A stretch of DNA of 64,000 bases from Candidatus Brocadia sp. WS118 (GTDB taxonomy: Bacteria > Planctomycetota > Brocadiia > Brocadiales > Brocadiaceae). The stretch covers positions 1 to 64,000 of the forward strand of contig PHFX01000153.1 in the NCBI GenBank assembly GCA_007618135.1, given 5' to 3'. The translations under genes were made by a program, and so were the position numbers. Shown piece by piece: positions 5,762 to 25,098 of this stretch (position 1 is the first letter of the stretch; each line of letters starts with the position of its first letter). Under the pieces are notes generated by a model. That model was not told the DNA's origin and ran no database searches. It worked only from the letters and a program-made list of their open reading frames with translations.

Positions 5762-6628
5762 ATGACAGAAGAAGCAAGCATTATCATTCCCACGTATAAT
5801 GAAAGGGAAGGAATATTCCACGTAATTGAATCATTGCAATCATTGAAAAAACGACATGGCAACCGATGGGAAATTATTGTTGTAGATGATGGCTCTACTG
5901 ATGGGACATCTGAAATGATAAGGAATACCCCGGAAATTGTGTTGATCAAACACTTCTTCAACCGGGGTTACGGAGCTGCCATTAAAACCGGTATCCGGCA
6001 TGCAACCTATAATACTCTTGTTATATCAGATGCGGATGGGACATACCCCATACAGGATATTCCGAGACTTCTCACACCCTTAGCAAAGAATGAGATGGTC
6101 GTTGGGGCAAGGGGAAACAATGATGCAAATATCCCATTCGTGAGAAGGCCTGCAAAGTGGCTTTTGAATAAGCTGGCCAATTATCTGACCGGGATACAGA
6201 TTCCAGACCTCAACTCAGGCTTCCGGGCAATGAAAAAAGAGGTCGTCATGAAATTTATCCATCTCCTGCCAGACGGTTTTTCTTTCACCACAACGATTAC
6301 CCTTGCCATGCTCACGAACGACTATGCAGTTGAATTCATCCCGATCGAATATCACAAACGTTCGGGAAGATCAAAGATCCGCCCCATCCGGGATACCCTG
6401 AACTTTATTCAACTTATCATACGGACGGTCTTATATTTTGATCCGCTTAAGATATTTTTACCAATCAGTGCATTTTTCTTTATTGCAAGCATCACCGTCC
6501 TTATCCTAAGCTATCTTTTCACCCCTAAGATTATGGACATTACCACCGTCATTCTTTTTATCTCCGGAGTACAAATCCTTGCCATTGGCATGATTGCCGA
6601 CCTTATCGATAAAAGAAGCCAGCCATGA
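5762..6628 (+). CDS. GT2 glycosyltransferase (polyprenyl-phosphate sugar transferase type)
   Basis: The 288-residue protein is like DPM1/GtrB enzymes, which move a sugar from a nucleotide donor to polyprenyl phosphate at the inner membrane face. The GT-A domain opens with ASIIIPTYNEREGI; VVDDGSTDGT and the DADGTYP metal site (DxD) are intact. QSGRS-like acceptor motif residues appear in HKRSGRSKIRP. Two membrane helices at about 229-251 and 257-280 anchor the C-terminus. Its stop overlaps the next start (ATGA), so it is coupled to the radical SAM gene. It probably supplies a lipid-linked sugar to the GT-C enzymes downstream. The exact sugar cannot be told. Confidence 0.88.
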   Translation: MTEEASIIIPTYNEREGIFHVIESLQSLKKRHGNRWEIIVVDDGSTDGTSEMIRNTPEIVLIKHFFNRGYGAAIKTGIRHATYNTLVISDADGTYPIQDIPRLLTPLAKNEMVVGARGNNDANIPFVRRPAKWLLNKLANYLTGIQIPDLNSGFRAMKKEVVMKFIHLLPDGFSFTTTITLAMLTNDYAVEFIPIEYHKRSGRSKIRPIRDTLNFIQLIIRTVLYFDPLKIFLPISAFFFIASITVLILSYLFTPKIMDITTVILFISGVQILAIGMIADLIDKRSQP

Positions 6629-8043
6629 AGGTTCTTTTCATTAATCCACCTGCCGAAAACGAATTGCTCGGCAACAACCCCAGCATTATCGAAGAAGAAC
6701 GCGGTTACAATCCGCCCCTGGGTCTCTTGTACATCGCTGCATATCTGGAAAGGCATACAAACTTCGACGTAGCGGTGCTGGATACCCAGGCGGAGGAGAT
6801 TGGATATGACCGTTTAGAGGACATCGTTCGGTCAAAATTACCGGATATCGTTGGTATTACCTCTATGACCTTCACCCTGATAGACGTCATAAAGGTCGTT
6901 GATCTGGTGAAATCGGTCCGTCGGGAAATAACGGTAGTACTGGGAGGTCCCCACGTACACATCTACCCCGAAGAAACGATCACAATCCCCGGCGTCGATT
7001 TTCTTGTCCTGGGCGAGGGGGAAATTACCTTTAAAGAGCTTGCAGAAAATATCGGGAATAAGACCCGGTTAAAAAACATTCCCGGTTTAGTGTTTCAAGA
7101 AAACGGCAGGATTGTTAATACCGGCACCCGGCCGCTGAACGATGACCTCGATAGCCTGCCTTTTCCAGCCAGACACATGACTCCGATCAAGAAATACAGT
7201 TCCCTCATGGCAAAGAGAACCCCTATTACTACCATGTTTACCAGCCGGGGCTGTCCCTACCGGTGCACCTTTTGCGACCGGCCTCATTTGGGCAAGAGTT
7301 TTCGGGCACGGTCTGCCTTGAACGTGGTAGACGAAATGGAGGCGTGTGTAAAGCTGGGCATCCGGGAATTCCTGATCTATGACGACACCTTTACGATAGA
7401 CAAACAGCGCGTAATAGATGTCTGTAATGAGATTGTACGAAGAAGACTTAATATCGGATGGGACATAAGGGCGCGGGTAAATAACGTTGACAGAGACCTG
7501 TTAAAAAAACTGAAAGAGGCAAACTGCGAACGCATCCATTTCGGTGTAGAATCGGGCAATCCGGAAATACTCAAGGTATTAAATAAGGGAATCACCGTGG
7601 AACGGGTGAGGACAACGTTCAAAGAAACGAAAGAAGCAGGGATATCTGTCCTTGCGTATTTCATGATCGGATGCCCAAAAGAAACAAGAAAAGAAATCAT
7701 GGAAACGATTGCGTTCGCCAGGGAGTTAAAGCCCGATTTTGTACATATCACCATATTCACACCGTTTCCTGCCACAGAGATATATAAGACGGGCCTGAAG
7801 GACGGTATTATCAAAACTGATTTCTGGAAGGAGTTTGCCAAAAATCCCACAAAAGATTTTCAACCACGGTGCTGGGAAGAACATTTTACCCGTGAAGAGC
7901 TTCAGGAATTAATTGTGTATGCCTACAAGAGCTTTTATACCCGACCCTCCTACATCCTGAAGAGACTCACCCATGTACGGTCAATCGGCGAATTCAAGAG
8001 GATGGCGCGGGCGGGACTCAAGGTCTTCGGGATGCAGTCATGA
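6625..8043 (+). CDS. B12-binding-domain radical SAM protein
   Basis: 472 residues. A cobalamin-binding-like domain (residues 1-145, KVLFINPP to LVLGEGEITFKEL) is followed by a radical SAM domain with the cluster motif C210-PYR-C214-TF-C217, and a C-terminal extension of about 100 residues. Family members do radical methylations, ring contractions or similar steps on lipids, sugars and cofactors; the substrate cannot be read from sequence. It is overlapped by the GT2 gene before and by the methyltransferase after (ATGA), so all three form one operon. The setting suggests modification of a glycan or its lipid carrier. It is full length for its class. Confidence 0.88.
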   Translation: MKVLFINPPAENELLGNNPSIIEEERGYNPPLGLLYIAAYLERHTNFDVAVLDTQAEEIGYDRLEDIVRSKLPDIVGITSMTFTLIDVIKVVDLVKSVRREITVVLGGPHVHIYPEETITIPGVDFLVLGEGEITFKELAENIGNKTRLKNIPGLVFQENGRIVNTGTRPLNDDLDSLPFPARHMTPIKKYSSLMAKRTPITTMFTSRGCPYRCTFCDRPHLGKSFRARSALNVVDEMEACVKLGIREFLIYDDTFTIDKQRVIDVCNEIVRRRLNIGWDIRARVNNVDRDLLKKLKEANCERIHFGVESGNPEILKVLNKGITVERVRTTFKETKEAGISVLAYFMIGCPKETRKEIMETIAFARELKPDFVHITIFTPFPATEIYKTGLKDGIIKTDFWKEFAKNPTKDFQPRCWEEHFTREELQELIVYAYKSFYTRPSYILKRLTHVRSIGEFKRMARAGLKVFGMQS

Positions 8044-8723
8044 GAGGCGTTTTGGATAAAGAATATGCTATTGCACGACAGACAAAACGCTCTCATATGT
8101 ATCGACTAAAAAGAAGAACCTTTGAGGTGATAAAAGGTATAGAGCAATTCCATCAGGAAAAACCGAGGTTAATCGTAGATATTGGAGCTGCGGATGGCCT
8201 CATGCTAAATAATTTACAAGAGGCATTTCCCCATTCAAACTGCGTAGGGATTGAATATGCCAGCGACTTGATTTCATGCAATGACAGCGAAAATATTCAT
8301 CTGATAAGAGGAAACGCTTTAGTTTTGCCTTTCAAAGACAATGTTGCTGATGTTGCTGTTGCAACTGCAATCATCGAACACGTTTCAGATCCAATTCAAT
8401 TAGTCCATGAAGCCTTTCGGGTCCTTCGGAAAAATGGCATATTCATTGTGACGACCCCTCATCCATTCTGGGAAAAGTTTGCTACACATATAGGCCATTT
8501 AAAAGAAGAGGAACATAACGAACTTATTACGCTTCGTGAATTAACCTCTGTATTCGGCGACACAGGATTTGAAGTCGTAAAAGCACAGCAATTCATGATC
8601 TCACCTGTCGGCATACCCTTTGAGTTGACGCTAGAAAGATTTCTAAAACTATGCGGATTGAAATTCTTATTATTGAATCAAATACTCATCGGAAGAAAAT
8701 TGGAAATAAATATTAAGCATTGA
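8040..8723 (+). CDS. Class I SAM-dependent methyltransferase
   Basis: A 227-residue Methyltransf_11-type enzyme. Motif I is VDIGAADG (residues 42-49), the acidic residue of motif II is in CVGIEYASDL, and NALVLPFKDNVADVAVATAIIEHVSDP gives motifs III-IV. The C-terminal part is hydrophobic and may touch the membrane. It is translationally coupled to the radical SAM gene by a 4-bp overlap. It probably methylates a sugar or lipid made by this locus. Target unknown. Confidence 0.85.
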   Translation: MRGVLDKEYAIARQTKRSHMYRLKRRTFEVIKGIEQFHQEKPRLIVDIGAADGLMLNNLQEAFPHSNCVGIEYASDLISCNDSENIHLIRGNALVLPFKDNVADVAVATAIIEHVSDPIQLVHEAFRVLRKNGIFIVTTPHPFWEKFATHIGHLKEEEHNELITLRELTSVFGDTGFEVVKAQQFMISPVGIPFELTLERFLKLCGLKFLLLNQILIGRKLEINIKH

Positions 8724-8948: not shown

Positions 8949-11486
8949 TCACCTTTTGAACGGATCATAGAGATCAGGCAGGCGGTATACGATGTAGATA
9001 TTCATTATGATAAAAAGAAAAAGGTACGTATAACATGCCGCCTTTGCAATTGCAGCGGTAATCCGATGTTTAAAAAAATCACATGCTAAAAAAGGGATAA
9101 TACCTATGGCGAGGTAATACCGGTAGAGCCATGGTGACTTGTATACATTGACGGGAAGGATCTCTTTTAACGGAACGGCGATAAGGATTAAGAGAATCAG
9201 GAGCGCCTTAGCAGTGTCGGGTTTTGAGATTGCATCCCGTACAAAAAGACCCCCGGCAATTGCCATAAACGGATATATCGGCATAAGAAACCAGCCAAAC
9301 GGAAGGGTATCCGTTGACAGGGCGCTGATTGTCATGAGCAGAATAAATGCCGTTACCGGAATGGTCAAATCTCGCTTTCCCATAGAATATACCAACACAA
9401 ACCAAAACCACCAGTAATAGCCAGTTCCAAAATGAGCGTAGTTTATGGTAATTCTGAAATCCCTCAGATATTTCATTACCATATCGAATACGGCACTTTG
9501 GTGCTTATCGCGTAATGACATCATTTTGGAAAAAGCCTCTGGATTTATCAGATAGCAATACAAAAAATAACTCATAGCAATGGCAAAACCAATTCCGGCT
9601 GCCGCGCCGGCTTCTTTTCTGAAACCTTTATGACCCAATAATAATGGGATAATACCGATTGCGCAGATACCCATTTCCTTACTCCAGAATGATATCCCTG
9701 CCAGGAATCCGGCGACGATTACATACACTCTTTTCCTCGATTCTGCGTATTGTAAGACACACCATACCCCCGAAATAAGGACGAGTGCAAGGAGGCCGTC
9801 TCCTTTGGCGATTCGGCCGGCAGCAACAAAGATCGGGACCGCAGCGTAAAGCAAACTTGCGATTATGGATGTTGAATAAGAGTGGTAGATTTTATAAGAA
9901 ACAGAAAATACCAGCAGGATAATAAGCGTAGAGAAAAAAATCGGTGTTATATTGATTGTTGTGAATCTGCAATCCAAATACTCCTTTGCACCGCATATTG
10001 TTGGTGGAATACCTGCAAAGATGGAAAACAGGGGCGGATGGGCAATGTAACGTTTTACTATCGTAAAACTGTCCCCAAACCATTGAAGAGATTTCTTATC
10101 CTCGTTTTTATACGCCGATACAAAATATGTACCTTCCCATGACTTAGGCCCTTCACCATGGAGGATATGATAACCATTCCAGGCCTCCTGATAGACATCC
10201 ATGGTATCCCCATGAGGCGGAATTACACTATAATGGTCAAGTCTGAGAACGGCGCCGAGAATTACAATAAAAATCAAGGCCACCACCGGCCAATTCTGTT
10301 GGGTATACGCAACGTACCTTTGAAAATAACATTTTCTTTTATTTTTCCGTAAGAGAAACACAACAACACCAAGAGATACAGATACCGATGCAACAAGAAA
10401 TCCTATTGCACACCACCATCTGGCCGTCCCAAAGCCCCCCCTGTTTTCTGAAGGCAGTAAATAGCGTGATGGAATATTTACAAGCCTGTTATCTCCCGGT
10501 TTCTGCCAGCACAGATTCAGTTTTGCATATTTGGCGATATTCACATAATTGATCTGTATCGGCTTCCAACCCTCTTCAAGATGGGTCTCTCTTGATGAAT
10601 CACCTCCGGCACGGTATCTCATGACAGGCTTTGAACCAATGAACAAGACCATTTCTCCATTCGTATCTGCATGAAATGTGTACATGCCGTCTTTTGGTAT
10701 CCAAACAAAACCCCTCCAGACAATATTATATACAGGAACACGCGCTGGTGGTTGAAACCGCTGGTTATCCCAGTAATTCACGTAATAGGTTCTCAGTATT
10801 CCGAAATTCCGGAAGGCTATGGTAGGGTCGTTCTTTCTGAATACGATACTATTTTCGTCGATTGCGCTCTCAGGCTCTATTTGCAGGGTATAAGGCATGG
10901 AGGCATCAACCGCATTTATATCACGGCTTGCTGCTCCATGATAAAATTGAGATAATGGTATTATGGTCTCACGTGCATTCGGCGCTTTCCACTTGAGGTA
11001 AAATGCAGCCCCACCTCCAACGTCAAAATATCGCACGTGAAAACGATAAAATCCTGGCTCAAGGAATAGTGTTTTCGTTTTTTTCACGATTCCATGCTGA
11101 CCTCCGTTATCAATCACCTTTCTGTCGTTCAGAAAGAGTTCTGACCCGTCATCCGAACCCAAGATAAAAGTATAGTCACCATGAACCTCTATTTTTAAAA
11201 AACCACCCCATTCAATGGTAAAGGGTGATTTATAGGCTTTTTGCGACTCAGAAGGCCAGTTAAAATTCAGAGATTCGTATTCACTGGCTTCTTTGATAAG
11301 CGTTTTTTTGGGGTGGCCTTCATAGACCTTTTTCCTGAGGCCGGAAGCCATCTCGGATGAAGATACCTTTACAGGATGGAGTGAAATAGATTCTGCTTTT
11401 GATTCCGTTTCCGAAAAATACAAGTAATATCCCGTCAATCCGCGATTGGGCAGGAGCAATTGAATGCCTGTATACATACCACCCAT
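8949..11486 (-). CDS. GT-C (GT39-like) membrane glycosyltransferase with two N-terminal PA14 domains
   Basis: 845 residues. Residues 16-184 form a clear PA14 domain (GLTGYYLYF, SDDGSELFLN at 111-120, HVRYFDVGGGAAFYLKW). Residues 229-344 form a second, more divergent PA14-like domain. A membrane helix at 357-379 leads to a multi-pass GT39/ArnT-like region (about 399-835) with DHYSVIPPHGDT as the likely first-loop acidic site. PA14 domains bind carbohydrate outside the membrane, so the enzyme may recognise the glycan it extends. The start is uncertain. Upstream in the same frame lies a hydrophobic stretch (GLLITLLIILL) that would make a good signal anchor, but no ATG, GTG or TTG precedes it. 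Confidence 0.82.
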   Translation of the reverse strand: MGGMYTGIQLLLPNRGLTGYYLYFSETESKAESISLHPVKVSSSEMASGLRKKVYEGHPKKTLIKEASEYESLNFNWPSESQKAYKSPFTIEWGGFLKIEVHGDYTFILGSDDGSELFLNDRKVIDNGGQHGIVKKTKTLFLEPGFYRFHVRYFDVGGGAAFYLKWKAPNARETIIPLSQFYHGAASRDINAVDASMPYTLQIEPESAIDENSIVFRKNDPTIAFRNFGILRTYYVNYWDNQRFQPPARVPVYNIVWRGFVWIPKDGMYTFHADTNGEMVLFIGSKPVMRYRAGGDSSRETHLEEGWKPIQINYVNIAKYAKLNLCWQKPGDNRLVNIPSRYLLPSENRGGFGTARWWCAIGFLVASVSVSLGVVVFLLRKNKRKCYFQRYVAYTQQNWPVVALIFIVILGAVLRLDHYSVIPPHGDTMDVYQEAWNGYHILHGEGPKSWEGTYFVSAYKNEDKKSLQWFGDSFTIVKRYIAHPPLFSIFAGIPPTICGAKEYLDCRFTTINITPIFFSTLIILLVFSVSYKIYHSYSTSIIASLLYAAVPIFVAAGRIAKGDGLLALVLISGVWCVLQYAESRKRVYVIVAGFLAGISFWSKEMGICAIGIIPLLLGHKGFRKEAGAAAGIGFAIAMSYFLYCYLINPEAFSKMMSLRDKHQSAVFDMVMKYLRDFRITINYAHFGTGYYWWFWFVLVYSMGKRDLTIPVTAFILLMTISALSTDTLPFGWFLMPIYPFMAIAGGLFVRDAISKPDTAKALLILLILIAVPLKEILPVNVYKSPWLYRYYLAIGIIPFLACDFFKHRITAAIAKAACYTYLFLFIIMNIYIVYRLPDLYDPFKR

Positions 11487-11809
11487 GAGCAGGATGATAA
11501 GAAGGGTTATTAAAAGTCCCTTTGATTTTGTGAATTGTTCCGTAGAGATTGCTAATTTCCTTAATTCAATAAAGAGGGAGACTACCGATTCTCTATTTTT
11601 TTGAAATTATATTCTTCTATAGACTATTTGTAAAGAAATCAAACAATTTGTATGTTGTATTGAAAAAAAACCCGAAAGGGTGTATATTTTGGAGAATTGT
11701 AACCATAAAAATTACAGAATGCCAGTCGGACTACGCAAGCAAAACATTGTAATAAAAACAATTGACTCGATTTTGAGAGATAAAGAGAGAAAAAAAACCA
11801 TCAGCAATA
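11487..11809. other. Divergent intergenic region, 323 bp
   Basis: An AT-rich gap lies between two outward-facing PA14-glycosyltransferase genes, so it should hold promoters for both. Bases 11487-11560 stay open in the frame of the leftward gene and encode a hydrophobic helix. The rest shows no coding signal or strong repeat. Confidence 0.45.
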
Positions 11810-14215
11810 ATGACATATTCGATTTTTTTTATCATCATTTCCATTGTAACCGGATTTCTCCTTACCTATCTACTGTCATCAAGATACTCCATCTTTGAAA
11901 GAGTTGCCTATGGAGTAACTCTAGGATTCGGACTTCATACCTGGCTTGTTTACCTCTTTTCCCTGCTTTGGAGACTTCAGTTCAAATGCATTTATCTTTC
12001 AACCAGCGTGCTTATTCTTTTTTGTTCACTCTTTCTTTGGATCAAATGGATATCCCTGAAAGATAAAATCCTGCATGAAGCACGGGAGATAAAAAATAAT
12101 TTTCTTGCCGATAAGGCATCCTGTGCTGTGCATCTTGCAGTATTTTCTTTTTTCACTACCATATTCTGGCGTCTTTTCTCCAGAACAATCCTCTTCAAGG
12201 AAGACGGGCTGTATGTTGGCTTAACGAATAATTATGGCGACCTTCCTCTGCATATGGCCTACATCACCTCTTTTGTCTGGGGTAATAATATCCCTCCCCA
12301 GGACCCATCTTTTGCCGGCGAGAAGCTGGTTTATCCATTCCTCTCCGACTTTCTCTCTGCTATCTTTCTCGAGTTGGGTTTAAATTTCAGAGACATCCTC
12401 TTCATTCCTGGCTTATTGCTCACGGTTTCACTCTATGGCGTCCTCTATTCCTTTACCTATCGTTTGACGAGAAAAAGGCTTGCTGCAATTATTTCGACCT
12501 TTCTTTTCTTTTTTTCCGGGGGGTTTGGTTTCTATTACTTCTTTCATGATCTTGTAAATACATCTCATACGCTCTGGTCATTTCTCATGCACATACCCCG
12601 TGATTACACAAAAATTCTACCGCTGAATTACCAATGGATTACTCCCCTGACATGCCTCAATGTACCGCAACGGGCTTTTCTCTTCGGTTTTCCGATCACC
12701 CTCTTAATCTTTTCTCTCCTCAGCACCGGCATTACCTATAAACAGTGGCGGGAATTCCTGTTTGCAGGCATCCTTGCCGGGACATTGCCGTTCTTTCACT
12801 CACACAGTTTTTTGGCAATGCTCATGGTAACCATACCCCTGGGTCTTATATTTTGGGACTGGCGAAAGTGGTTTCTGTTCTTTATGCCGGCCTTTACCCT
12901 GTCACTGCCACAGGTGGTGTATCTTTCAGGACACGTGGGTGGCGGAAGTTTCTTCAAACCAAATTTTGGCTGGACGGCAGGAAACGAAAACGTTCTTTGG
13001 TTCTGGCTAAAAAATACCGGACTTTTCTGTCCTTTGATCATAACCGGATTCACAACAATTTTTATTTTTCGCAGGGGCACGGATCACCGTGCATCTACAC
13101 GTCTTGGATTATTTTCATTGCCGTTCCTGATACTTTTTCTGGTTCCTAATCTCGTACTCTTTGCGCCCTGGAATTGGGACAATATAAAAATATTCATTTA
13201 TTGGTTTTTGGGAATGACCCCTGTAGCAGCATGTGCAATGGTCCGTTTGTATGAAAATCCCTGTTATAAGATTCCCTCAAGGGTATGCTTTTTCATCGTT
13301 ATGTTTTTCCTCACCTTTGCAGGAAGTATAGATGTGTTTAAGTATGCCATTGTCCCGGTTACCGGATGGAAGGAATTCAGCACGGAGGAAATGGAGCTTG
13401 CCAGACGCATTTCCCTTGAAACCCCGCCAGATGCTATATTTTTAAGCGCACCAATATTTAACCATCCGGTTTTTTTGTCAGGGAGAAAATCATTGATGGG
13501 GCATCCGGCCCATATATGGAGTCATGGTTACCATGGCGCTCAGAGGCGTGAACGGGACATTCAAAAGATGCTCAAAGGGAAACCCAACATTCTGTCACTA
13601 ATAAATACCTATAAACCTTCTTACGCTACGATTGGCCCGCACGAGAAGCGCATGGGTGCAAACAAGGGATTTTTTGATAACAACTGCCCCATCATTATTA
13701 CTACAAAAAATTACACCGTTTATGACCTTACCAGGTTGTCAGAAGACCAAACCATTGTTTCTGAAGCGATCAAGAAAATAGATTTGACCGGCCAAAAGTA
13801 TGGATTGCATATGCGGTATTATGATAATATACTTTGGGAGAATGAACCAGAACATGAGGAGATTGCTGAACATATTGGATTCAGTTGGGCTGATGAAGAA
13901 AAAAAGCCGGTTTCAAGCCCTTTTGGTGTTATCCTGGAAGGTTTTATCGATATTCATATTCCAGGCTTATACACCTTTAAAATACTATCAGATGATGGTT
14001 CCTGGCTTTTTTTAGATAATGCATTGATAATAGACAATGGCGGCCGTCATGCAATAAAGTCTGCAAGCGGCACCCTTACCATGGAAAAAGGGACACATAA
14101 AATAATGATCAAATATTTTGATGCAGGCGGTGGAGCTATCCTTAGGCTCCTGTGGGTACCACCCGGAGGTGTGGAATCACAAATTCCAAAGGAACAATTA
14201 AAAATGAAAGAGTGA
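11810..14215 (+). CDS. Multi-pass membrane protein with C-terminal PA14 domain (putative GT-C)
   Basis: 801 residues. About a dozen hydrophobic helices in residues 1-510 are followed by a soluble region and a PA14 domain at 664-798 (LHMRYYDN, LSDDGSWLFLDNALIIDNGGRHA, IKYFDAGGGAILRLLWVPPGG). The membrane part resembles GT-C or YfhO/DUF2298-like proteins, with loop residues NYGDLPLHMAYI as the probable first-loop catalytic region; the family is not certain. The PA14 domain is at the opposite end from that of the leftward neighbour but is clearly related. The next gene starts 7 bp after the stop, so the pair is one operon. Confidence 0.78.
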   Translation: MTYSIFFIIISIVTGFLLTYLLSSRYSIFERVAYGVTLGFGLHTWLVYLFSLLWRLQFKCIYLSTSVLILFCSLFLWIKWISLKDKILHEAREIKNNFLADKASCAVHLAVFSFFTTIFWRLFSRTILFKEDGLYVGLTNNYGDLPLHMAYITSFVWGNNIPPQDPSFAGEKLVYPFLSDFLSAIFLELGLNFRDILFIPGLLLTVSLYGVLYSFTYRLTRKRLAAIISTFLFFFSGGFGFYYFFHDLVNTSHTLWSFLMHIPRDYTKILPLNYQWITPLTCLNVPQRAFLFGFPITLLIFSLLSTGITYKQWREFLFAGILAGTLPFFHSHSFLAMLMVTIPLGLIFWDWRKWFLFFMPAFTLSLPQVVYLSGHVGGGSFFKPNFGWTAGNENVLWFWLKNTGLFCPLIITGFTTIFIFRRGTDHRASTRLGLFSLPFLILFLVPNLVLFAPWNWDNIKIFIYWFLGMTPVAACAMVRLYENPCYKIPSRVCFFIVMFFLTFAGSIDVFKYAIVPVTGWKEFSTEEMELARRISLETPPDAIFLSAPIFNHPVFLSGRKSLMGHPAHIWSHGYHGAQRRERDIQKMLKGKPNILSLINTYKPSYATIGPHEKRMGANKGFFDNNCPIIITTKNYTVYDLTRLSEDQTIVSEAIKKIDLTGQKYGLHMRYYDNILWENEPEHEEIAEHIGFSWADEEKKPVSSPFGVILEGFIDIHIPGLYTFKILSDDGSWLFLDNALIIDNGGRHAIKSASGTLTMEKGTHKIMIKYFDAGGGAILRLLWVPPGGVESQIPKEQLKMKE

Positions 14216-14222
14216 AGAAACT

Positions 14223-16214
14223 ATGAAAGCACAGCAAAAACAAGGTATTCTCTTATTTGTAGCCTTTTTTCTCCCCATCGTAACAGCATCATTGCTCCGT
14301 TTCTGGGACTTGGGTCTCAGGCCATTTCACTCAGACGAAGGGGTAAATAGTTTCTTCTTGCTCAATTTATACAACAAGAACTATTACCACTACGATCCTG
14401 CCAATTATCATGGTCCCTTCCTTTATTATATTGGTTTAATCCCCTTTTACCTCTTTGGCATTTCCGATTTTACCTTCCGGCTTATGCCGGTTTTGTTCGG
14501 AATTATGGGTGTGGCTTTGTTCTATCCGCTGCGGCGACGATTGGGCACAATGGGTCTCCTGACCACAGGATTATTGGTTGCCTTCTCTCCTGCAAATTCT
14601 TTTTTCTCAAGGGATACCATCCACGAAATTTATCTGGTATTCTTTTCTCTTGCCGTTGTCGTTGCCTTTTTTCTTTACGCCGAGACAAGGAAATCACGGT
14701 ACCTCTATTTTGCCGGGGCAAGTATTGCCTTTGTTATCACGATAAAAGAAACGTACATACTGACTTTTGCCGTGTACGCATTGTCTTTAGCTACAGCGTA
14801 TTGTTACGAAGTGGTTTTTCTCAGGAAAGGTGACAGATATCAATGCGGCAAAACTATCCTTGCCACATTTGCTGGTGATTGCAAAAAAAACAAATATGCC
14901 ATAGGAATAAGCGTCGGAATATTTTTCCTCATTACCTTCTTATTGTATTCATCGTTTTTGACATACTATGCTGGTATCAAAGGCATTTTAACTACCCTTA
15001 AGATATGGACAAAAACAGGCACACACAGTAGCGGACATGCCAAACCGTTTTTCTATTACTGGAAAATCCTTTACAAATTCGAACTCCCTATCCTGGTCCT
15101 GGGAATTGCTGGATTTTATTATTCATTTCGGCGTGGAAACAAATTTACTGTTTTTGTTGCATCGTGGGCCATCCTCATCTACCTCGTGTATTCCTTCATT
15201 CCCTACAAGACACCCTGGTTGATTTTAAACATCTTGCTCCCGCTTTCTCTTTTGGGAGGAATTTTTGTAAACACTGTCTTTTCACTATGTACAAGGGGAT
15301 GGCAGCATGCAATCTTTTATCCCCTCTGCGTTGGTATTTTCGGTTTTTCCTGTTATCAGTCTCTTATGCTGAACTTCAACAATTACGACGACGAACGGTA
15401 CGAACTTGTCTATGTACAAACCAAACGGGATATTTATAATTTATTAGACAGATTAGAATCCCTTTCAAATGCGTATGGAAACGACATGACCGTTAATGTC
15501 GTTTCGAGAGAATACTGGCCATTACCATGGTATCTCAGAGAATACAAAAATGCGAAATTCTGGGGCAACCTTATTGAAAAGCCTGACGCTCCGGTTATTT
15601 TGGTAGATAAAAAAGGAGAAACAGAACTGAGCAAAAAATTAAAGGGAGAGTACAAGAAGGAACGGTTCGTATTGCGGCCTGGCGTTTGGCTCACCGCATA
15701 TATCCAACAAAATCTCTATGACCAGAAATTCGATACGGAAGCAATAGCAGCAAGTACAGAATCAATTGATACGATTTCAAAAGAGGAATTAGAGGCGGGT
15801 TTAATCGCAAAATACTACTACAACATTGAATGTATTGGAAATCCTTTTCTATCGAGAGTAGAAAAAGACGCTATTTCGTTTACCTATAATGACGAGTCGA
15901 AAAAACCTTACCGATCACCCTTTGGCATTGAATGGGAGGGATATCTGTCTGTTCCGCAAAAAGGGGCATATCAATTTGCAACAAAGTCAGACGATGGTTC
16001 TTTGGTTTATCTTGATGGGAAGAAGATCGTCGACAACGACGATCTTCATGCAGCACAGTACCTTTCAGCTGTTGTATCATTAGAAGCAGGGTTCCACCGT
16101 ATTCGAATAAGATATTTTGATGCAGGCGGCGGAGCTGTTATGGAGTTTTTTTGGAGGCCTCCGGGCGGGAAAGAATCTCTTGTTCCGGGTAACGTTTTAT
16201 TTCATAAAAAGTGA
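14223..16214 (+). CDS. GT39/Agl23-like membrane glycosyltransferase with C-terminal PA14 domain
   Basis: 663 residues. The N-terminal motif RFWDLGLRPFHSDEGVNSFF (from about residue 29) and YHGPFLYYIGLIPFYLFG match the TIGR03663 (flippase activity-associated Agl23) type of GT39 proteins, where the Asp-Glu in HSDEG is the predicted catalytic site. About ten membrane helices run to residue 390. A soluble region leads to a PA14 domain at 523-660 (KSDDGSLVYLDGKKIVDN, RYFDAGGGAVMEFFWRPPGG). Members of the family work with polyprenyl-linked sugars in glycan assembly. It forms an operon with the 801-residue protein before it and converges on a GT2 gene. Confidence 0.83.
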   Translation: MKAQQKQGILLFVAFFLPIVTASLLRFWDLGLRPFHSDEGVNSFFLLNLYNKNYYHYDPANYHGPFLYYIGLIPFYLFGISDFTFRLMPVLFGIMGVALFYPLRRRLGTMGLLTTGLLVAFSPANSFFSRDTIHEIYLVFFSLAVVVAFFLYAETRKSRYLYFAGASIAFVITIKETYILTFAVYALSLATAYCYEVVFLRKGDRYQCGKTILATFAGDCKKNKYAIGISVGIFFLITFLLYSSFLTYYAGIKGILTTLKIWTKTGTHSSGHAKPFFYYWKILYKFELPILVLGIAGFYYSFRRGNKFTVFVASWAILIYLVYSFIPYKTPWLILNILLPLSLLGGIFVNTVFSLCTRGWQHAIFYPLCVGIFGFSCYQSLMLNFNNYDDERYELVYVQTKRDIYNLLDRLESLSNAYGNDMTVNVVSREYWPLPWYLREYKNAKFWGNLIEKPDAPVILVDKKGETELSKKLKGEYKKERFVLRPGVWLTAYIQQNLYDQKFDTEAIAASTESIDTISKEELEAGLIAKYYYNIECIGNPFLSRVEKDAISFTYNDESKKPYRSPFGIEWEGYLSVPQKGAYQFATKSDDGSLVYLDGKKIVDNDDLHAAQYLSAVVSLEAGFHRIRIRYFDAGGGAVMEFFWRPPGGKESLVPGNVLFHKK

Positions 16215-16216
16215 AT

Positions 16217-16945
16217 TCACTGATAACATCCTTTGAAATCCTTTATTTTTATGATGAACAAGTCCCTCAACATCTGAAGGGAATGCCGAACTGGTTTTAC
16301 CTTACTCAATGCAGAATTTTCCCATCGAATTGGAATTTCCTTTATTTTATAATTGAATTTCCTCGATATATATAACGCTTCCACGTCAAAAGAAAAACCA
16401 TTGATAACGCACCTGCTAAAGACCTTGTTTACCACATCCTTTTTGAACCCTTTAAAGCCACATTGCGTATCAATGATCCCCTTCAGTAACACCAGATTTA
16501 CAATAAAATTGAAGATTTTACCCATCTTCTCCCGATACCAGGGTTGACGAACGGTAATTTCAGAATCAGACATGCTTCGCGACCCAACGACAACATCATA
16601 ACCACCAGTAAGATGCGGCAGGCACTTTTCTATTTCCTCAATAGGGGTAGAGAGGTCTGCATCAGTAAAAAAGATATAGTCTCCTCTTGCAGACAACATA
16701 CCTTTTCTCACGGAATAACCCTTGCCATAATTCCGGTCATTTGCCAAAACAACAATGTGGTCATTTGAACTTGCACATTTATTTATCATTTGCAAGGTGT
16801 TATCTGTGGAACCATCATCCACCACAATAATTTCGTAAGGGAATCCTCCATGAGAAAGGTATGAGCAAATTTTGTTGATGGTCGTTAATAATCTCTTTTC
16901 CTCGTTATAAGCAGGAATGGCTATTGACAGGAAACATTCACTCAT
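16217..16945 (-). CDS. GT2 glycosyltransferase, dolichyl-phosphate beta-glucosyltransferase-like
   Basis: 242 residues. SIAIPAYNEEKRL opens the GT-A fold, VVDDGSTDNT and TDADLSTP (DxD) form the donor and metal site, and DTQCGFKGFKK is a conserved ALG5/DPG synthase motif. There is no clear C-terminal membrane helix. It would make polyprenyl-phosphate-glucose or a similar donor on the cytosolic face, a plausible supply for the GT-C enzymes next door. Its stop is 2 bp from the convergent PA14 gene. On the other side it follows gspF by 11 bp on the same strand and may be read through from the secretion operon. Confidence 0.87.
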   Translation of the reverse strand: MSECFLSIAIPAYNEEKRLLTTINKICSYLSHGGFPYEIIVVDDGSTDNTLQMINKCASSNDHIVVLANDRNYGKGYSVRKGMLSARGDYIFFTDADLSTPIEEIEKCLPHLTGGYDVVVGSRSMSDSEITVRQPWYREKMGKIFNFIVNLVLLKGIIDTQCGFKGFKKDVVNKVFSRCVINGFSFDVEALYISRKFNYKIKEIPIRWENSALSKVKPVRHSLQMLRDLFIIKIKDFKGCYQ

Positions 16946-16956
16946 CGATACGTTCT

Positions 16957-18159
16957 TTAAAAGCGGAGATCGTTCACACTCAAAATTGCCGTTAGCATAG
17001 AAATTACAATTATCCCGATAACAGCGCCCATCAGCAATATGAGTACTGGTTCAACCATGGTCACCAGCCGCTTCATCCGGTGCTCGACATCGGCATCAAA
17101 ATTATCTGCCACTTTTAAAAGCATTTGATCCAAATTTCCTGTTTCTTCGCCTACTTTCAGCAAATGGACTGCAATTTCCGGCAAGAAGTCTCTTTTTGCA
17201 AGTGATATCGTAAGGCCGTCTCCTTCCTTTACGTTTGCTTTTACACTTCCCAAAATATCAGCAAGATACCGATTAGACAATACGTCCTTCACAATATCCA
17301 TCGATTTTAGCAATGGAACGCCATTTTCTAATAGGGTACCAAGCGTTCTAGCAAATCTTGATACCTGCATTTTCCATAAAAGATTACCAATAAGCGGCAA
17401 CCGTAACTTCTTTCGGTCTAATTTTATGGAGGTATCGTTATCCTTCATTGCTTTTTTATATGAAAAGAATGCAATGAGGGCAGCAAGAATTATAACCCAA
17501 CCGTATCGAATAGAATACTGGCTCATACCCATGAGTATCATGGTCGAGAAAGGGAGAGAAATGCCCATGCCATCGAAGATCTGCGCAAACTTGGGAATAA
17601 CATATACAATAAGCGCTCCCACACATACGAGACCCGTGCTGCTCAGCAAGAGGGGATAAATCATCGCGGAAATAATCTCGCTCCTGACTTTTTGCAGTCT
17701 TTCTTGAAAAGCCCCCAATCTCTTGAGTACCTGCGGCAACACCCCGCCTTCTTCTCCGGCACGCACCATGTTTATATAAACATTGGAAAAAAGTTTGACA
17801 TGATTCGTGAGTGCTTTAGCAAAGGATTTTCCTGACTTAATTCCATTCAGCAAATCCTCAATAACGTCTTTGATCGCATTTTTATCTTGACCGGACAGCA
17901 AAATGGACAAACTCTTGTCAAGAGGAATACCACCCTCAAGCAATGTAGCAAGTTCTTGGGTAAAAGGCAGGATAGCTTTTTTATTCAACCGGTTTAGGAA
18001 AAATCCAAATTTTTTATTGTTATCTGCCTGTTGAATATGTAAAACAATGTGGCCTGATTTGCGGAGTTCATTAATCAGGTCTGTCCTACTCAGTGCTTCT
18101 TTTTCTCCTTCCACAACCCCACTGGATGCTGTTAATAATTTGTATCGAAAGGTACTCAT
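16957..18159 (-). CDS. gspF: Type II secretion inner-membrane platform protein GspF
   Basis: 400 residues, the standard GspF/PilC length. It has two repeated cytoplasmic T2SSF domains (FTQELATLLEGGIPLDKSLSILLSG and ARTLGTLLENGVPLLKSMDIVKDVL) and membrane helices near 168-192, 218-238 and 370-392. It transmits ATPase motion to the pseudopilus. It is the last secretion gene in this block. The ATPase GspE, which it would contact, is not in the window. Confidence 0.93.
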   Translation of the reverse strand: MSTFRYKLLTASSGVVEGEKEALSRTDLINELRKSGHIVLHIQQADNNKKFGFFLNRLNKKAILPFTQELATLLEGGIPLDKSLSILLSGQDKNAIKDVIEDLLNGIKSGKSFAKALTNHVKLFSNVYINMVRAGEEGGVLPQVLKRLGAFQERLQKVRSEIISAMIYPLLLSSTGLVCVGALIVYVIPKFAQIFDGMGISLPFSTMILMGMSQYSIRYGWVIILAALIAFFSYKKAMKDNDTSIKLDRKKLRLPLIGNLLWKMQVSRFARTLGTLLENGVPLLKSMDIVKDVLSNRYLADILGSVKANVKEGDGLTISLAKRDFLPEIAVHLLKVGEETGNLDQMLLKVADNFDADVEHRMKRLVTMVEPVLILLMGAVIGIIVISMLTAILSVNDLRF

Positions 18160-18165
18160 AAACCT

Positions 18166-18780
18166 CTATTTTTTTATGTTCGATCTCATGACAACAATCT
18201 GTTCTTCACCATACCAATCAAGCCTCACTTGATCCGGTTCTATATTTTTTACCTTATATTCTGCAATTTCTTCACCTTCTTCAATAAAGATAAACGGTTT
18301 TTTATTTGATGTCTGATCCGGGTTTTCGATAAGAGCCTTTCTGGTGTTTCCGAGAATCAAGATTCCCCGTAAGGTAATTTTTTTCGGTGTTCCCCTTGGT
18401 TTGTGTTGATTTTCCACCGGTTGTACAACTCCTTCTTCATGTTGTTTTGGTTCTGTCTTTGCTCCCAGCGGAGCCCAAACAGTACGATTCGGAGAAAAAG
18501 GGTTGTTTGACAATATGAGTTCATAATTCTGTATTGGTTTCATATCAGACTGAAGAGAAGGCAACAGGTTATTCTTCAACGGTATGCCTTCTTCTCCCTT
18601 ATCTGGCTTCATGCTAATTTCAGGCGGGTAATACACTAACAACACGCAAATAACGGCAAGACTTATAACACCTGTGAATAAAAAAAGATTTATGATCGGC
18701 AGATAATGCTTCCATTGTTTTATCTTTTTAACGAAGGGTTCAACTGCAACCCGCAATAATTTTATCTTAAGAGACTTCAT
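18166..18780 (-). CDS. gspC: GspC/PilP-like type II secretion protein
   Basis: 204 residues: a short cytoplasmic N-terminus, one membrane helix (about 28-50), a flexible linker, and a C-terminal HR-type domain. The conserved NYELILSNNPFSPNR precedes the domain ITLRGILILGNTRKALIENP, which resembles the GspC HR fold that contacts the secretin N0 domain. There is no PDZ domain, so it is a short PilP-like form. It lies between the gspM-like and gspF genes, the usual inner-membrane assembly group. Confidence 0.72.
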   Translation of the reverse strand: MKSLKIKLLRVAVEPFVKKIKQWKHYLPIINLFLFTGVISLAVICVLLVYYPPEISMKPDKGEEGIPLKNNLLPSLQSDMKPIQNYELILSNNPFSPNRTVWAPLGAKTEPKQHEEGVVQPVENQHKPRGTPKKITLRGILILGNTRKALIENPDQTSNKKPFIFIEEGEEIAEYKVKNIEPDQVRLDWYGEEQIVVMRSNIKK

Positions 18781-18784
18781 ACTA

Positions 18785-19387
18785 TTACGACTTCTTTTCT
18801 ATGGAGACAATAGCCGTCAAACTCGAAGAAATAGTAGCACCTTTTACAACATTTAACCCTAAAGTTTTTATTTTGAGATTATCGAGAAAAAGCAGTTTTT
18901 CATTGCTATATTCTATGTCATATAAAAAATTTTGTAGTTTTTGAGAATTATCCAAATTACTGATTTCGAAATTGATTGATAGTTCAATAAGATATGGTTT
19001 TTTGTTCAGTATCTCTTTTTTTAAAGCCGTACTCCGTGATACAACAAGTCCATTCTTGGTAGCTAGATTGTTTATTATTTCCTGTAATTTTGCAGAGGCA
19101 AGTTCTTCCGTTTCCTCGGAAAGGAATTTCCCTTGATATTCAGAATAATATCGTTCAAGATCACTTAATCTGGTCTCATATTGTTTTTTGTTAGCTATAA
19201 ACGAATAGTATTTTTTCAGGAGTTGCTTTTGTGTCTCAAGCCTCTCTTTTGTCTCATTGATAGATTTAAAAAAGGGCGTAATCATAGCCTTATCAATACC
19301 TATATACAAGAGAACGATAATGGCGACAATCAAAAGTACCCGCTCTCTCCACTTGAATTTATGAAATAGCTCCGGAAATTTTCCCAT
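18785..19387 (-). CDS. gspM: GspM/PilO-like inner-membrane assembly protein
   Basis: 200 residues. One N-terminal membrane helix (RVLLIVAIIVLLYIGIDKAM, 15-34) is followed by a long coiled coil (about 40-105) and a ferredoxin-like periplasmic domain ending in LTAIVSIEKKS. This is the layout of GspM and PilO, which pair with GspL/PilN in the inner-membrane platform. It starts 7 bp after the gspL-like stop, supporting the partnership. Named by architecture and position more than by sequence. Confidence 0.75.
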   Translation of the reverse strand: MGKFPELFHKFKWRERVLLIVAIIVLLYIGIDKAMITPFFKSINETKERLETQKQLLKKYYSFIANKKQYETRLSDLERYYSEYQGKFLSEETEELASAKLQEIINNLATKNGLVVSRSTALKKEILNKKPYLIELSINFEISNLDNSQKLQNFLYDIEYSNEKLLFLDNLKIKTLGLNVVKGATISSSLTAIVSIEKKS

Positions 19388-19393
19388 ATCGTG

Positions 19394-20656
19394 TTATCTT
19401 TGAATATTCCCTTTTATCCGAAATTTTTCCCTGCCACTTTGTGTTTTTGTAACAGGAGAAACTAACCCCACCCCTGAAAAAAGTGGTGAATTTTCTAAAA
19501 TTGGTATTAAATTCGTGGAAGATACCGCATCGCCTTCTACTTCAAAAGTGTTATCTACAATGGTAATAGCCTTTGCCCACGCGTCATTCGGGAGTACCTT
19601 TGCCAATTCCAGAATGACATCAATCCTCGGAATGTAACTTCCTTTCACTTCATTAATATTACTAACGGCTTTATCCAGGACTGCAGTACGCTCCTGGATC
19701 TTCTCAACAACAGAAACATCTTTTTTTATCGCTTTAATCTGAGCATTTATTGTTTTTAATATCGCCAGATTATTCAACTTTTGTATGTAAGGAATAAGAA
19801 ATACAAAACAGATGAGGAATCCTATGAAAAAAAACATTACGCCGGTTTGGGCGTTTAGCCTCCTTTTGGATGAGCTAATGAGGCTCAGATTGCACGGATA
19901 TTCTGACAAACCATACAGCGCTGCACCGTACGACTCTAAATGTTCATCCAATAATTGAGCGGGAATTTTGCTTTCATTTGGTACAATGTCATTACTGACA
20001 TTTGCCCACAGTATTTCGCCCGGAAGGTTCGTTTTAATCTGGTTGGTTAATTCTGCCTCTGTTTTTATCATCGATGATAATATCAGATGGTTATTCTCAA
20101 ACAGATTGTAACTGTAATTTTTTGCATTTTTACTGACCAAAGCAACAGGACCTTTTTTTTCTCCCAGAATAGGCAGGAAGGCAAAAGGAGAGATAATCAC
20201 CCGGGAGGGAGTAATACCAATAGCTTGTAATTTTGTCAATATATTATCCAATTCCATCTTTTTCATAGCAACAATAAGTACCTTCGTATCTTGTCTGCTG
20301 TGAGATAATGCATGAATGTCAAAATAAACATCTTCATTACTAAACGGGATAAAACTATCCAGTTGATATGCAAGCGCATCCCGTAACTCCTTCAGATTCG
20401 AATGGGGATACTCTATTTCCCTGATAATGGAAAATTCTCTCGGCAAGGAAAGGATAATATCTCCCGCAAATTTCCCTTTTTCCAAGGATGCAGGTTTTAA
20501 TTGCAAAGGATCCTTGAGCATAAAATCTTTAATTTTGACAGTCTCATGCGAATAGGCAATTAACTTTTTCCAAATGGTCGTTATAATAAGGTCGTTTCCA
20601 CACAGAGACAAGCCCATAGCCCTTTGAGAAAACATATTGATGAAGGGTATTTTCAT
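19394..20656 (-). CDS. gspL: GspL/PilM-PilN-like type II secretion protein
   Basis: 420 residues. The N-terminal actin-like cytoplasmic domain (1-250; IILSLPREFSIIREIEYP and AYQLDSFIPFSNEDVYFD match PilM/GspL) is followed by one membrane helix near 270-290 (GVMFFFIGFLICFVFLIPYI) and a periplasmic coiled coil with a PilN-like domain. GspL links the ATPase to the periplasmic platform. As a fused PilM-PilN form it accounts for both functions. It lies between gspK and gspM. Confidence 0.82.
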   Translation of the reverse strand: MKIPFINMFSQRAMGLSLCGNDLIITTIWKKLIAYSHETVKIKDFMLKDPLQLKPASLEKGKFAGDIILSLPREFSIIREIEYPHSNLKELRDALAYQLDSFIPFSNEDVYFDIHALSHSRQDTKVLIVAMKKMELDNILTKLQAIGITPSRVIISPFAFLPILGEKKGPVALVSKNAKNYSYNLFENNHLILSSMIKTEAELTNQIKTNLPGEILWANVSNDIVPNESKIPAQLLDEHLESYGAALYGLSEYPCNLSLISSSKRRLNAQTGVMFFFIGFLICFVFLIPYIQKLNNLAILKTINAQIKAIKKDVSVVEKIQERTAVLDKAVSNINEVKGSYIPRIDVILELAKVLPNDAWAKAITIVDNTFEVEGDAVSSTNLIPILENSPLFSGVGLVSPVTKTQSGREKFRIKGNIQR

Positions 20657-20676
20657 AATTACGGAATTTCAGTACT

Positions 20677-21750
20677 CTATTCTGGATACGCTGCAAGAAT
20701 TTTACAATGTCCCGCACTTTTTAGCACAAGCAATCTATATTCATTTTTTATTGTCCCTGAAGAAGCAATCGAATTGATCAAAATATAATTCGAATTATCT
20801 AGCGTTAAATACTTCATGACCTCTTCATAATCCTTTCCAATAACGCCAAAATGCCTGAATATTTCTTTTAAGGTATCAAGTTTTTTAATTTTCCCCCGTT
20901 TTTTTCTCAATTGAATTATGGCATCTGCAATTTCGTCAGTAATCGTGGGTACATAGAGGAGAACTTCCTTCGATGCAAAGTTCACGTTGACCTTCCCTGA
21001 CCCGTAAATCGTCAAATGATCACGTAACAAATCAAATATTTGTGGTGTGACCCCTTTTACTAAGGTCAGTTCTTCAATGGACTCGAATGGTCCATTCTTC
21101 GGCTCATAGGGATCTGATAATGTGGCATAATAATCTTTTTCTGCACCATTGACATGATGTAATTCATCCTCATCTAACCAATCCAGTATCGAATCTGTTA
21201 TGGTTTCTGCGACGAGTTCTTTTAGCTTATATGCTTTAAGAACTTTGGTAAAACTCACTCTCATATCATCGGTTATCTTGTTTACATTTATTTTCCCACT
21301 TTCATCGCTGATCGACACTTCACAATCTCTATCCCCTATACGAATTGAATAGGGACTATTGCTTGGCATCCATGAACTGCTATTCTTAATTTTTTTCCGA
21401 TCATCTGAATCTTTTTCTGCGCCTCTCTTCTTTTTTAGCTCTGCAATCTTACTGGTTTTCGCATCTTTTTCCTGGTTCTTTGATTGCAATAGTTTTTGTG
21501 TCGCATACATACAGGCGCCACGTGCTGCATAAATATTTTTTATACGCTCCGTAAACGTAATTTCCGTTTTAATAGCAATACTGGTATTCCTGGTGAAACT
21601 CACTGCTATAAACCCTAAAATCACGATTGCCCAGAGGCTAAAAATTAATGCATAGCCATGATTGGTGATATAAGCTCTTGTTCCTTTCCGTGTTTTGACA
21701 CCAATAATTTTATTGCCAGAGGGACTTTCTTCTTCACTTCTTCTTTCCAT
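20677..21750 (-). CDS. gspK: Minor pseudopilin GspK
   Basis: 357 residues. A hydrophobic N-terminal helix (NHGYALIFSLWAIVILGFIAVSF, residues 30-52) has the pseudopilin pattern, though the usual GF cleavage pair is replaced by NHG-Y. The large domain includes the GspK SAM-like part (DWLDEDELHHVNGAEKDYY, FESIEELTLVKGVTP) and a helix-hairpin-helix near the C-terminus. GspK caps the pseudopilus tip with GspI and GspJ. The ATG at 21750 gives a 106-bp overlap with gspJ; no start codon occurs between there and the hydrophobic helix, so the overlap seems real. Confidence 0.85.
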   Translation of the reverse strand: MERRSEEESPSGNKIIGVKTRKGTRAYITNHGYALIFSLWAIVILGFIAVSFTRNTSIAIKTEITFTERIKNIYAARGACMYATQKLLQSKNQEKDAKTSKIAELKKKRGAEKDSDDRKKIKNSSSWMPSNSPYSIRIGDRDCEVSISDESGKINVNKITDDMRVSFTKVLKAYKLKELVAETITDSILDWLDEDELHHVNGAEKDYYATLSDPYEPKNGPFESIEELTLVKGVTPQIFDLLRDHLTIYGSGKVNVNFASKEVLLYVPTITDEIADAIIQLRKKRGKIKKLDTLKEIFRHFGVIGKDYEEVMKYLTLDNSNYILINSIASSGTIKNEYRLLVLKSAGHCKILAAYPE

Positions 21751-22412
21751 TGTAAGTCTGTACCTTCGATAACGTCTTCATTCTGTACCTTTCCATGAAT
21801 GTCTCCTTTCGTATCATCAGGTTTTTTCGCTTCCCCATCAACTTCTTCTTCATTTTCACGCTCATCACCCGCGTCATCAAGATAAGCAAATGAAATTTTA
21901 TCACAATCTTTGAGAAATACGACAGAATCCTTATCTGCTCGTAGCCGACTTTCCGATTCTTCAGATAAAGTAATTAATACCATAGGGTTAACCCTCAGTT
22001 CTGAGTACATAAGATCCCACAAACCTTTATCATTCGCCTTAATTCTATAATTGGCAATTATCAATCCCTGGCCATAATGTCTTGTAAAGGAAAGGGGCGA
22101 TACAAAGGTAAGAAAATCTCTTTCCCCATTGAAATAGAGGAGTTTCGTTTTTTTAAGATTTTTGTTTTCTTCAGTCTCCCCAATATTTTTCTTTGGTACC
22201 TTCTGAATACGCAGCGAAGAGGCCTGTTGCCAGAAGAAATCGTAAACGGCTTTTTCCTTTGTTGATTCATTAAACCACAGCTCTTCCCTTTCCATAGAAA
22301 ACAAACCAACCCGTATTGCATAAGCGCCGGACATAATCAAAAGGGTCCCTATGAAAAGAGCTATAAGTAATTCAAATAGAGTAAAGCCTTCTTTCTGTTT
22401 CATTTGTTTCAT
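21645..22412 (-). CDS. gspJ: Minor pseudopilin GspJ
   Basis: 255 residues. MKQMKQKEGFTLFELLIALFIG is a classic prepilin leader with cleavage after the Gly and a Glu at +5. The rest is a beta-rich GspJ domain with an acidic insertion (DDAGDERENEEEVDGEAKKPDD, residues 174-195) just before the C-terminus. It works with GspI and GspK at the pseudopilus tip. The 3' end overlaps gspK by 106 bp. A prepilin peptidase would be needed and is not in this window. Confidence 0.87.
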   Translation of the reverse strand: MKQMKQKEGFTLFELLIALFIGTLLIMSGAYAIRVGLFSMEREELWFNESTKEKAVYDFFWQQASSLRIQKVPKKNIGETEENKNLKKTKLLYFNGERDFLTFVSPLSFTRHYGQGLIIANYRIKANDKGLWDLMYSELRVNPMVLITLSEESESRLRADKDSVVFLKDCDKISFAYLDDAGDERENEEEVDGEAKKPDDTKGDIHGKVQNEDVIEGTDLQWKEEVKKKVPLAIKLLVSKHGKEQELISPIMAMH

Positions 22413-22429
22413 TTTACGATGAAAAATAT

Positions 22430-22933
22430 CTATTCCACTGTATCCTCCTCTTCTTCACGAACTTCCCTTTCGGATGATTCAGAGAAGGCATCAGATTCTT
22501 GAGAGAAGAAAATTGTTTCGATACGTATCCCTCCCACCAGGGTGCTCAGCAAAGTAGTTCCTTTTGGTGGAACCTCTATGGAGCCTTCATCGGCAACCTC
22601 CTTAGAGAAATCGATTTTATCCACGGCTTCTTTATATTTATTAACCTCTGATACCTTCCACTGCACCCCATCCTTTGTTACACCTTCAAAAGTTTTTTCT
22701 TTATCTCTCTTTTCATGTTTTTTCCCAAGTATCCCTAACAAAGCCTCTTCCGTTTTTGTTCTGGCAAGAAGTAATAATTCTGCGTGTCGATCAATTTTTT
22801 CTCTTAACCTTGCTGAATTCCCAATCAAACTAAAAAAAATCCCAATGGAAATTCCCACGATTGCCAGCGCAACCATAACCTCCAGGATAGTAAACCCTTT
22901 TTTCCCCTCGATTTTAGTATTTCTCAATTTCAT
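22430..22933 (-). CDS. gspI: Minor pseudopilin GspI
   Basis: 167 residues. The leader EGKKGFTILEVMVALAIVGISIGIF has the prepilin cleavage site (G-F) and Glu at +5, as in GspI and GspV. The soluble domain is short and ends in an acidic tail (SSEREVREEEEDTVE). Its start overlaps the last 20 bp of gspD, so expression is coupled to the secretin gene. Confidence 0.85.
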   Translation of the reverse strand: MKLRNTKIEGKKGFTILEVMVALAIVGISIGIFFSLIGNSARLREKIDRHAELLLLARTKTEEALLGILGKKHEKRDKEKTFEGVTKDGVQWKVSEVNKYKEAVDKIDFSKEVADEGSIEVPPKGTTLLSTLVGGIRIETIFFSQESDAFSESSEREVREEEEDTVE

Positions 22934-24947: not shown

Positions 24948-25098
24948 CAATAAATCCCCCCATGAATGGGTAAATCTACCTTCGTTCATACCGCTCTCAT
25001 TTTATCTGTGCCATACATTATCCTGGGAATGCAGCCAATATGAGTTTTTCATTATGTAATATGTTGGATCTAATTACTACTGGTGGGTGAACACAAAG

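Follow-up and report, generated by a model that had tools for sequence, protein, structure and literature searches.

The window analyzed here, a stretch of 64,000 nucleotides from Candidatus Brocadia sp. WS118 (contig PHFX01000153.1, positions 1 to 64,000), carries three neighboring genes, here called ORF1, ORF2 and ORF3, that each encode a polytopic membrane protein joined to PA14. These genes, their domains and their neighbors are as follows.

5762..8723, plus strand: GT2, B12-binding radical SAM and methyltransferase genes, recurrent neighbors
8949..11486, minus strand: ORF1, N-terminal anchor helix, two PA14 domains and a GT39-like (PMT_2) GT-C membrane half
8952..10349, minus strand: ORF1 membrane half, with PMT_2/PMT matches and a conserved HGDTMD in the first outer loop
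about 10494..10793, minus strand: ORF1 PA14 domain 2, divergent, both sugar-site motifs lost in 12/12 orthologues
10956..11345, minus strand: ORF1 PA14 domain 1, with SDDGS and YFDxGGGA
11463..11519, minus strand: signal-anchor transmembrane helix of ORF1, GLLITLLIILLMGGMYTGI, running across the called ATG
11810..14215, plus strand: ORF2, polytopic half with a weak likeness to TIGR03662 (YYY) / DUF2298, and a C-terminal PA14
13796..14194, plus strand: ORF2 PA14 domain, SDDGS invariant in 23/23 copies
14223..16214, plus strand: ORF3, Agl23 (TIGR03663) GT-C protein with a C-terminal PA14
15837..16184, plus strand: ORF3 PA14 domain, SDDGS invariant in 22/22 orthologues
16217..16945, minus strand: GT2 of the polyprenyl-phosphate-sugar synthase type, adjacent to ORF3 in most relatives, likely donor maker
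16957-24989, minus strand: type II secretion operon (GspF, M, L/PilN-like, K, pseudopilins, GspD), adjoining the cluster

All three proteins are polytopic and all contain PA14 (Pfam E-values from 1e-22 to 6e-19), with PF07691 scores of 80.4 bits for ORF1 (over two stretches), 69.2 for ORF2 and 68.7 for ORF3, relative to a curated cut-off of 24 bits. Across the genome (5.04 Mb, 96% complete), a PF07691 search returned exactly four PA14 copies, all of them within these genes. The Pfam and genome searches thus confirm the observation, first made in a sequence-only reading of the window, that three ORFs at these positions each join a membrane protein to PA14. The GT-C label that this reading gave to all three fared less evenly against family profiles, being solid for ORF3, good for ORF1 and weak for ORF2.

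ORF3 scored 255.9 bits (E = 7.4e-76) against the Agl23 profile TIGR03663, above the curated cut-off of 126.25 (also given as 126), and 42.5 bits against PMT_2 (PF13231, cut-off 26.1). The ORF3 profile also found solved ArnT (5EZM) at E = 3e-5, and on such profile matches its placement in the Agl23 family, and with it the GT-C label, appears solid. The membrane half matches that of Ca. B. pituitae at 89%. In a tree, the anammox Agl23 membrane half (window 14223-15722) groups with Myxococcota Agl23 and not with that of other planctomycetes (support 1.0), which suggests horizontal transfer. ORF1 exceeded the PMT_2 cut-off (40.7 bits vs 26.1), which makes a GT-C assignment good, and fell under that of Agl23 (16.1 bits vs 126.25). 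A sequence search found no solved relative of its membrane half, and its AlphaFold model has a mean pLDDT of 42.

The membrane half of ORF2 itself had no Pfam match, PMT_2 included. ORF2 scored 25.4 bits against TIGR03662 (chlor_Arch_YYY), below the curated cut-off of 300.25; five of its 15 orthologues matched this profile at E 0.01 or better, a distant likeness, and 3/15 matched DUF2298. These matches appear to tie the membrane half weakly to known GT-C-like families. Its AlphaFold model (mean pLDDT 61) is mostly under 70 in the membrane half and about 77-93 over most of the length of PA14, and the fold search, which covered the PA14 part, gave PA14 matches only. In ORF2, the match to Ca. B. 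pituitae, the nearest named relative of this Brocadia, is 90%. Among the orthologues, those of Ca. Kuenenia hertensis (G025:C89:34911-39792) and a relative (G028), of 978 and 947 aa, end in two tandem PA14 domains, and that of Ca. Brocadia carolinensis (G008:C24:42968-45372) is broken by frameshifts and stops, being either a pseudogene or an assembly error.

The ATG called for ORF1 (11486) lies inside the anchor helix. This helix is kept upstream in several ORF1 orthologues, some of which have an ATG ahead of it, and the true start of ORF1 is upstream of the called ATG. The open frame there (window 11486-11606, minus strand) holds no ATG, GTG or TTG, and an AAGGAAA stretch lies ahead of an ATC codon; ORF1 may thus use a rare start codon, or the sequence may contain an error.

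In PA14 lectins, a pair of aspartates joined by a cis linkage (DcisD) coordinates the Ca2+ that binds sugar diols, and a D-x-GG loop helps (PMC8092209, PMC6650083). SDDGS lines up with the DDG of MpPA14 and MhPA14, two PA14 lectins from RTX adhesins, and was invariant in 57/57 copies of three of the Brocadia domains (12/12 for ORF1 domain 1, 23/23 for ORF2 and 22/22 for ORF3), in which the helper loop reads YFDxGGGA. The second ORF1 domain, which on its own scores 26.4 bits against the PF07691 cut-off of 24, instead has TNG.. and Y[FV]N..[KR]YA at these places in all 12 orthologues. The expectation that every PA14 domain would carry both motifs therefore holds for three copies and fails for ORF1 domain 2. 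The ORF2 PA14 model matched solved PA14 lectins with Z of 15-21, of which sugar-bound PA14 structures gave about 17 and the RsgI3 dyad from Clostridium gave 21.

Although BLASTP found no pairwise similarity between the membrane halves of ORF1 and ORF3, the PA14 domains of ORF2 and ORF3 are 43% identical over 138 residues, a combination that fits a shared ligand. The suggestion that the three enzymes share an acceptor glycan gains from this; the S-layer glycan is one possible ligand. As to whether the PA14 domains share one origin or were shuffled, each family formed its own clade in FastTree phylogenies, and the order among ORF1, ORF2, ORF3 and outside PA14 shifted with sampling when Myxococcota sequences were added.

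Membrane topology was predicted with a home-made, admittedly crude model that uses positive-inside scoring at several settings. For ORF1, the N-terminus was placed inside and the PA14 pair outside at every setting, with the acidic first-loop motif always on the same outer side as PA14. For ORF2 and ORF3, an outside C-terminus scored best at every setting, for ORF2 by a thin margin. The model thus favors PA14 on the outer face. The periplasm-facing orientation supposed in the sequence-only reading is predicted for all three proteins, firmly for ORF1, moderately for ORF3 and marginally for ORF2, and the cytosolic placement of PA14 that would speak against it was predicted for none. The same crude model put the conserved GDLPLH loop of ORF2 on the cytosolic side and the first-loop DE motif of ORF3 inside, the latter placement being attributed to a false helix at residues 64-80. 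The AlphaFold membrane halves are too poor to place PA14 near an active site.

The order gspF-GT2-ORF3-ORF2 recurs across anammox genera of the Brocadiaceae, the gspF end of the type II secretion operon being conserved beside the cluster in relatives. ORF1 and the radical SAM/methyltransferase/GT2 group lie near that order or elsewhere in Brocadiaceae genomes, and it is synteny only that would link the group at 5762..8723 to the PA14-GT-C system. Profile searches gave ArnC and dolichol-phosphate-mannose (DPM) synthase as the nearest solved relatives of the GT2 at 16217-16945. Beyond the type II secretion operon come FtsQ and D-Ala-D-Ala ligase genes, where a cell-division/cell-wall cluster begins, and beside the trio we identified no genes for a polymerase, a ligase or export.

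The ORF2-ORF3 pair is also present in Anammoxibacter, and anammox relatives carry at least four further PA14-membrane families. These further polytopic kinds include an ORF2 paralogue, a kind of about 700 aa whose membrane half has no Pfam match, and two PMT_2 kinds, one of about 700 aa and the other reaching about 1340 aa, the latter with one or two PA14 domains. The non-fragment PA14 proteins in the examined anammox loci are polytopic with two exceptions, both soluble and one of them bearing a peptidase M23 domain; these come from the genome presumed to be Ca. K. stuttgartiensis. A decayed PMT_2-PA14 remnant with several stops lies between the ORF2 paralogue and ORF1 in a relative (L041 12314-12601; G005:C1:3660343-3660729), pointing to gain and loss of such genes.

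Among 392 planctomycete genomes, Agl23 homologues from outside the anammox group matched ORF3 over the membrane half only and had PA14 in none of the 14 examined, and the non-anammox planctomycete PA14 proteins examined had 0-1 transmembrane helices. A second search, with a PMT_2-PA14 query, found full-length fusions in anammox genomes only. We also searched eight non-planctomycete genomes with Agl23 for PA14, and one of them, a Deltaproteobacteria MAG that genome-wide searches place with Myxococcota MAGs, has an Agl23-PA14 protein on a 71%-GC contig, whose alignment with ORF3 spans about 640 residues at 28-29%. This is the sole such fusion among 379 genomes of its phylum. We rejected the idea that the fusion is unique to anammox bacteria, given that this protein aligns full length with anammox ORF3, and likewise the idea that it is an anammox contaminant, as its GC content matches that of the other Agl23 contig in its own genome. 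Neither its enzyme half nor its PA14 grouped with anammox ORF3 in trees, though support was weak, and the Myxococcota protein is likely, though not proved, to be a separate fusion.

Widespread fusions already described in another role would have told against the sequence-only reading. Our literature search, mostly without subscription journals, found no description of PA14 joined to a GT-C enzyme; yet the Myxococcota MAG does provide one fusion outside the phylum. Both parts are known, and a GT-C enzyme with a carbohydrate-binding module is a known design; we did not find PA14 described in that position, on several unrelated enzymes.

GT-C enzymes work at the outer face of the membrane, with polyprenyl-phosphate-linked sugars as donors. 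In the mechanism that we propose, the neighboring GT2 (16217-16945) would probably make a polyprenyl-phosphate sugar on the cytosolic side, a donor-making role suggested by its resemblance to ArnC and DPM synthase. ORF1 and ORF3, and probably ORF2, would act as GT-C glycosyltransferases that use polyprenyl-phosphate-linked sugars at the periplasmic face. On that same outer face, the PA14 domains would serve as Ca2+-dependent lectin modules, as suggested by the invariance of SDDGS and its alignment with the Ca2+/sugar site of PA14 lectins. By binding the acceptor glycan, they may make transfer more efficient or more selective, in the manner of the carbohydrate-binding modules on other GT-C enzymes. 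Such modules have precedents: that of GT136 binds the acceptor backbone (PMC11127046), that of EmbC is needed for efficient activity (PMC3044687), and human B4GALNT3 loses nearly all activity once its PA14 is deleted (PMC11254600).

We hold with moderate confidence that these proteins are GT-C transferases fed by the neighboring GT2, with PA14 as an acceptor-binding lectin. This reading draws on observed domain content, motif conservation, synteny, the ORF3 family and genome distribution, and on modeled topology; from these we infer the donor, the acceptor, the Ca2+ dependence and the division of labor. Counting against it are the weak enzyme identity of ORF2, the lost sugar site in ORF1 domain 2 and the ORF2 and ORF3 loops modeled inside.

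One rival concerns the product. The cluster might instead make another surface polysaccharide, such as an exopolysaccharide or an O-antigen-like glycan, with PA14 holding the chain. Anammox bacteria produce much extracellular matrix, and the cluster is sometimes present where the S-layer gene is not. Among GT-C enzymes that bear carbohydrate-binding modules, the two studied best, EmbC and GT136, work on polysaccharides. The absence of identified polymerase, ligase and export genes beside the trio, which is flanked by type II secretion genes and the start of a cell-division/cell-wall cluster, argues the other way, and we regard this alternative as possible but doubtful. That PA14 binds protein or is structural, with no glycan ligand, would suit ORF1 domain 2, which lacks a sugar site, and some PA14 domains do have non-sugar roles; the Asp pair of the Ca2+/sugar site is nevertheless invariant in 57/57 copies of the other three domains, which makes this explanation very unlikely. 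ORF3 could also be mainly a flippase for lipid-linked sugars, its PA14 receiving or sensing the flipped glycan. It scores above the TIGR03663 cut-off, and archaeal Agl23 from Haloarcula hispanica has been reported as a lipid-linked-oligosaccharide flippase and not a transferase, the purified HhAgl23 translocating lipid-linked oligosaccharide (PMC11182771). ORF3 also matches the ArnT and PMT_2 transferases, however, and keeps the acidic first-loop GT-C motif, and a flippase would leave PA14 on ORF1 and ORF2 unexplained; we therefore consider it unlikely.

If the PA14-GT-C proteins are transferases, the S-layer glycoprotein is a tentative candidate acceptor, the set building or finishing the O-glycan of a protein of the Kustd1514/BROSI_A1236 type and PA14 recognizing the shared glycan. 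At 13 sites, the S-layer protein of Kuenenia bears an O-glycan made up of five HexNAc and a dimethylated deoxyhexose (PMC5088730), Brocadia has a glycosylated S-layer protein, BROSI_A1236 (PMC10202920), and PA14 lectins can bind GlcNAc and fucose (PMC8092209). Methyltransferase genes lie close to the trio. With the Ca. K. hertensis homologue as query, we tested 20 genomes: 11 have both a full-length S-layer homologue and PA14-GT-C, none has the S-layer homologue only, three have PA14-GT-C only and six have neither, so that the homologue is missing from all six genomes without PA14-GT-C. The association is significant by genome (Fisher p = 0.002) but not by genus (p = 0.17), and Anammoxibacter genomes, which have ORF2-ORF3, and G010 (a Ca. 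B. sapporoensis assembly) have PA14-GT-C without a full-length S-layer homologue. The present genome, which is that of a Brocadia and not of a Kuenenia, is one of the 11; its homologue of the Kuenenia S-layer protein (C1:64938-69440, 44%) lies on a different contig from the trio.

In the genome taken to be Ca. K. stuttgartiensis, partly on account of a 1591-aa S-layer homologue, ORF1-3 are missing and a two-PA14 PMT_2 protein is present instead; the published S-layer peptide was not found there but was found in Ca. K. hertensis. Because the species with the solved S-layer glycan appears to lack ORF1-3, these genes themselves would not be needed for its S-layer glycosylation. The link of PA14-GT-C to the S-layer is thus suggestive, no more. 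Separately, a segment of ~95 residues at the C-terminus of the S-layer protein recurs in dozens of places in many other anammox proteins (e.g. G000:C25:67115-67414), one of them on the same contig just past the end of the window; it may be a domain for sorting or anchoring.

Known systems share parts of this arrangement. In mycobacterial EmbA/B/C and AftD and in GT136 (C. youngae ORF12), as in our proposal, a GT-C enzyme bears an outside beta-sandwich module that binds the acceptor, and the donor is a polyprenyl-phosphate sugar from a cytosolic synthase; in Brocadia, the module is PA14, at either end of the enzyme and on several unrelated GT-C-like families of one cluster. The human LacdiNAc synthases B4GALNT3 and B4GALNT4 have PA14 on the luminal (outer) side, where it is needed for activity (PMC11254600), but they are single-pass Golgi enzymes with a soluble, nucleotide-sugar-dependent catalytic domain, whereas the Brocadia proteins are polytopic. 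The ORF3 membrane half is an Agl23 member by the curated cut-off; PA14 was absent from the other planctomycete homologues examined, and among those examined from Myxococcota and other non-planctomycete bacteria a single one has it. The ArnT/ArnC pair, which transfers L-Ara4N to lipid A, is detected by the profiles of ORF3 and the adjacent GT2, but ORF3 carries PA14 and no Arn-pathway genes were noted. The closest solved PA14 domains, those of the Clostridium RsgI3 dyad and of RTX and yeast adhesin lectins, have the same fold and a DcisD-type motif and sit on an anti-sigma factor or adhesins, whereas those of Brocadia sit on predicted glycan-synthesis enzymes.

The arrangement is real and conserved, and it is consistent with lectin-guided periplasmic glycosylation. 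In its broadest and rather improbable form, the proposal would be that anammox bacteria have a dedicated periplasmic glycosylation system in which a PA14 lectin was placed on at least seven GT-C-like families of differing chemistry that act on a surface glycan they have in common, probably the one on the S-layer. Anammox surface proteins shape the granular sludge of wastewater treatment, and the genes described here are candidates for their unexplained glycosylation. The occurrence of PA14 on several unrelated enzymes in one lineage, apparently through a separate fusion on a Myxococcota Agl23, and on the human LacdiNAc synthases suggests that PA14 lectins have been added repeatedly to supply membrane sugar transferases with their acceptor.
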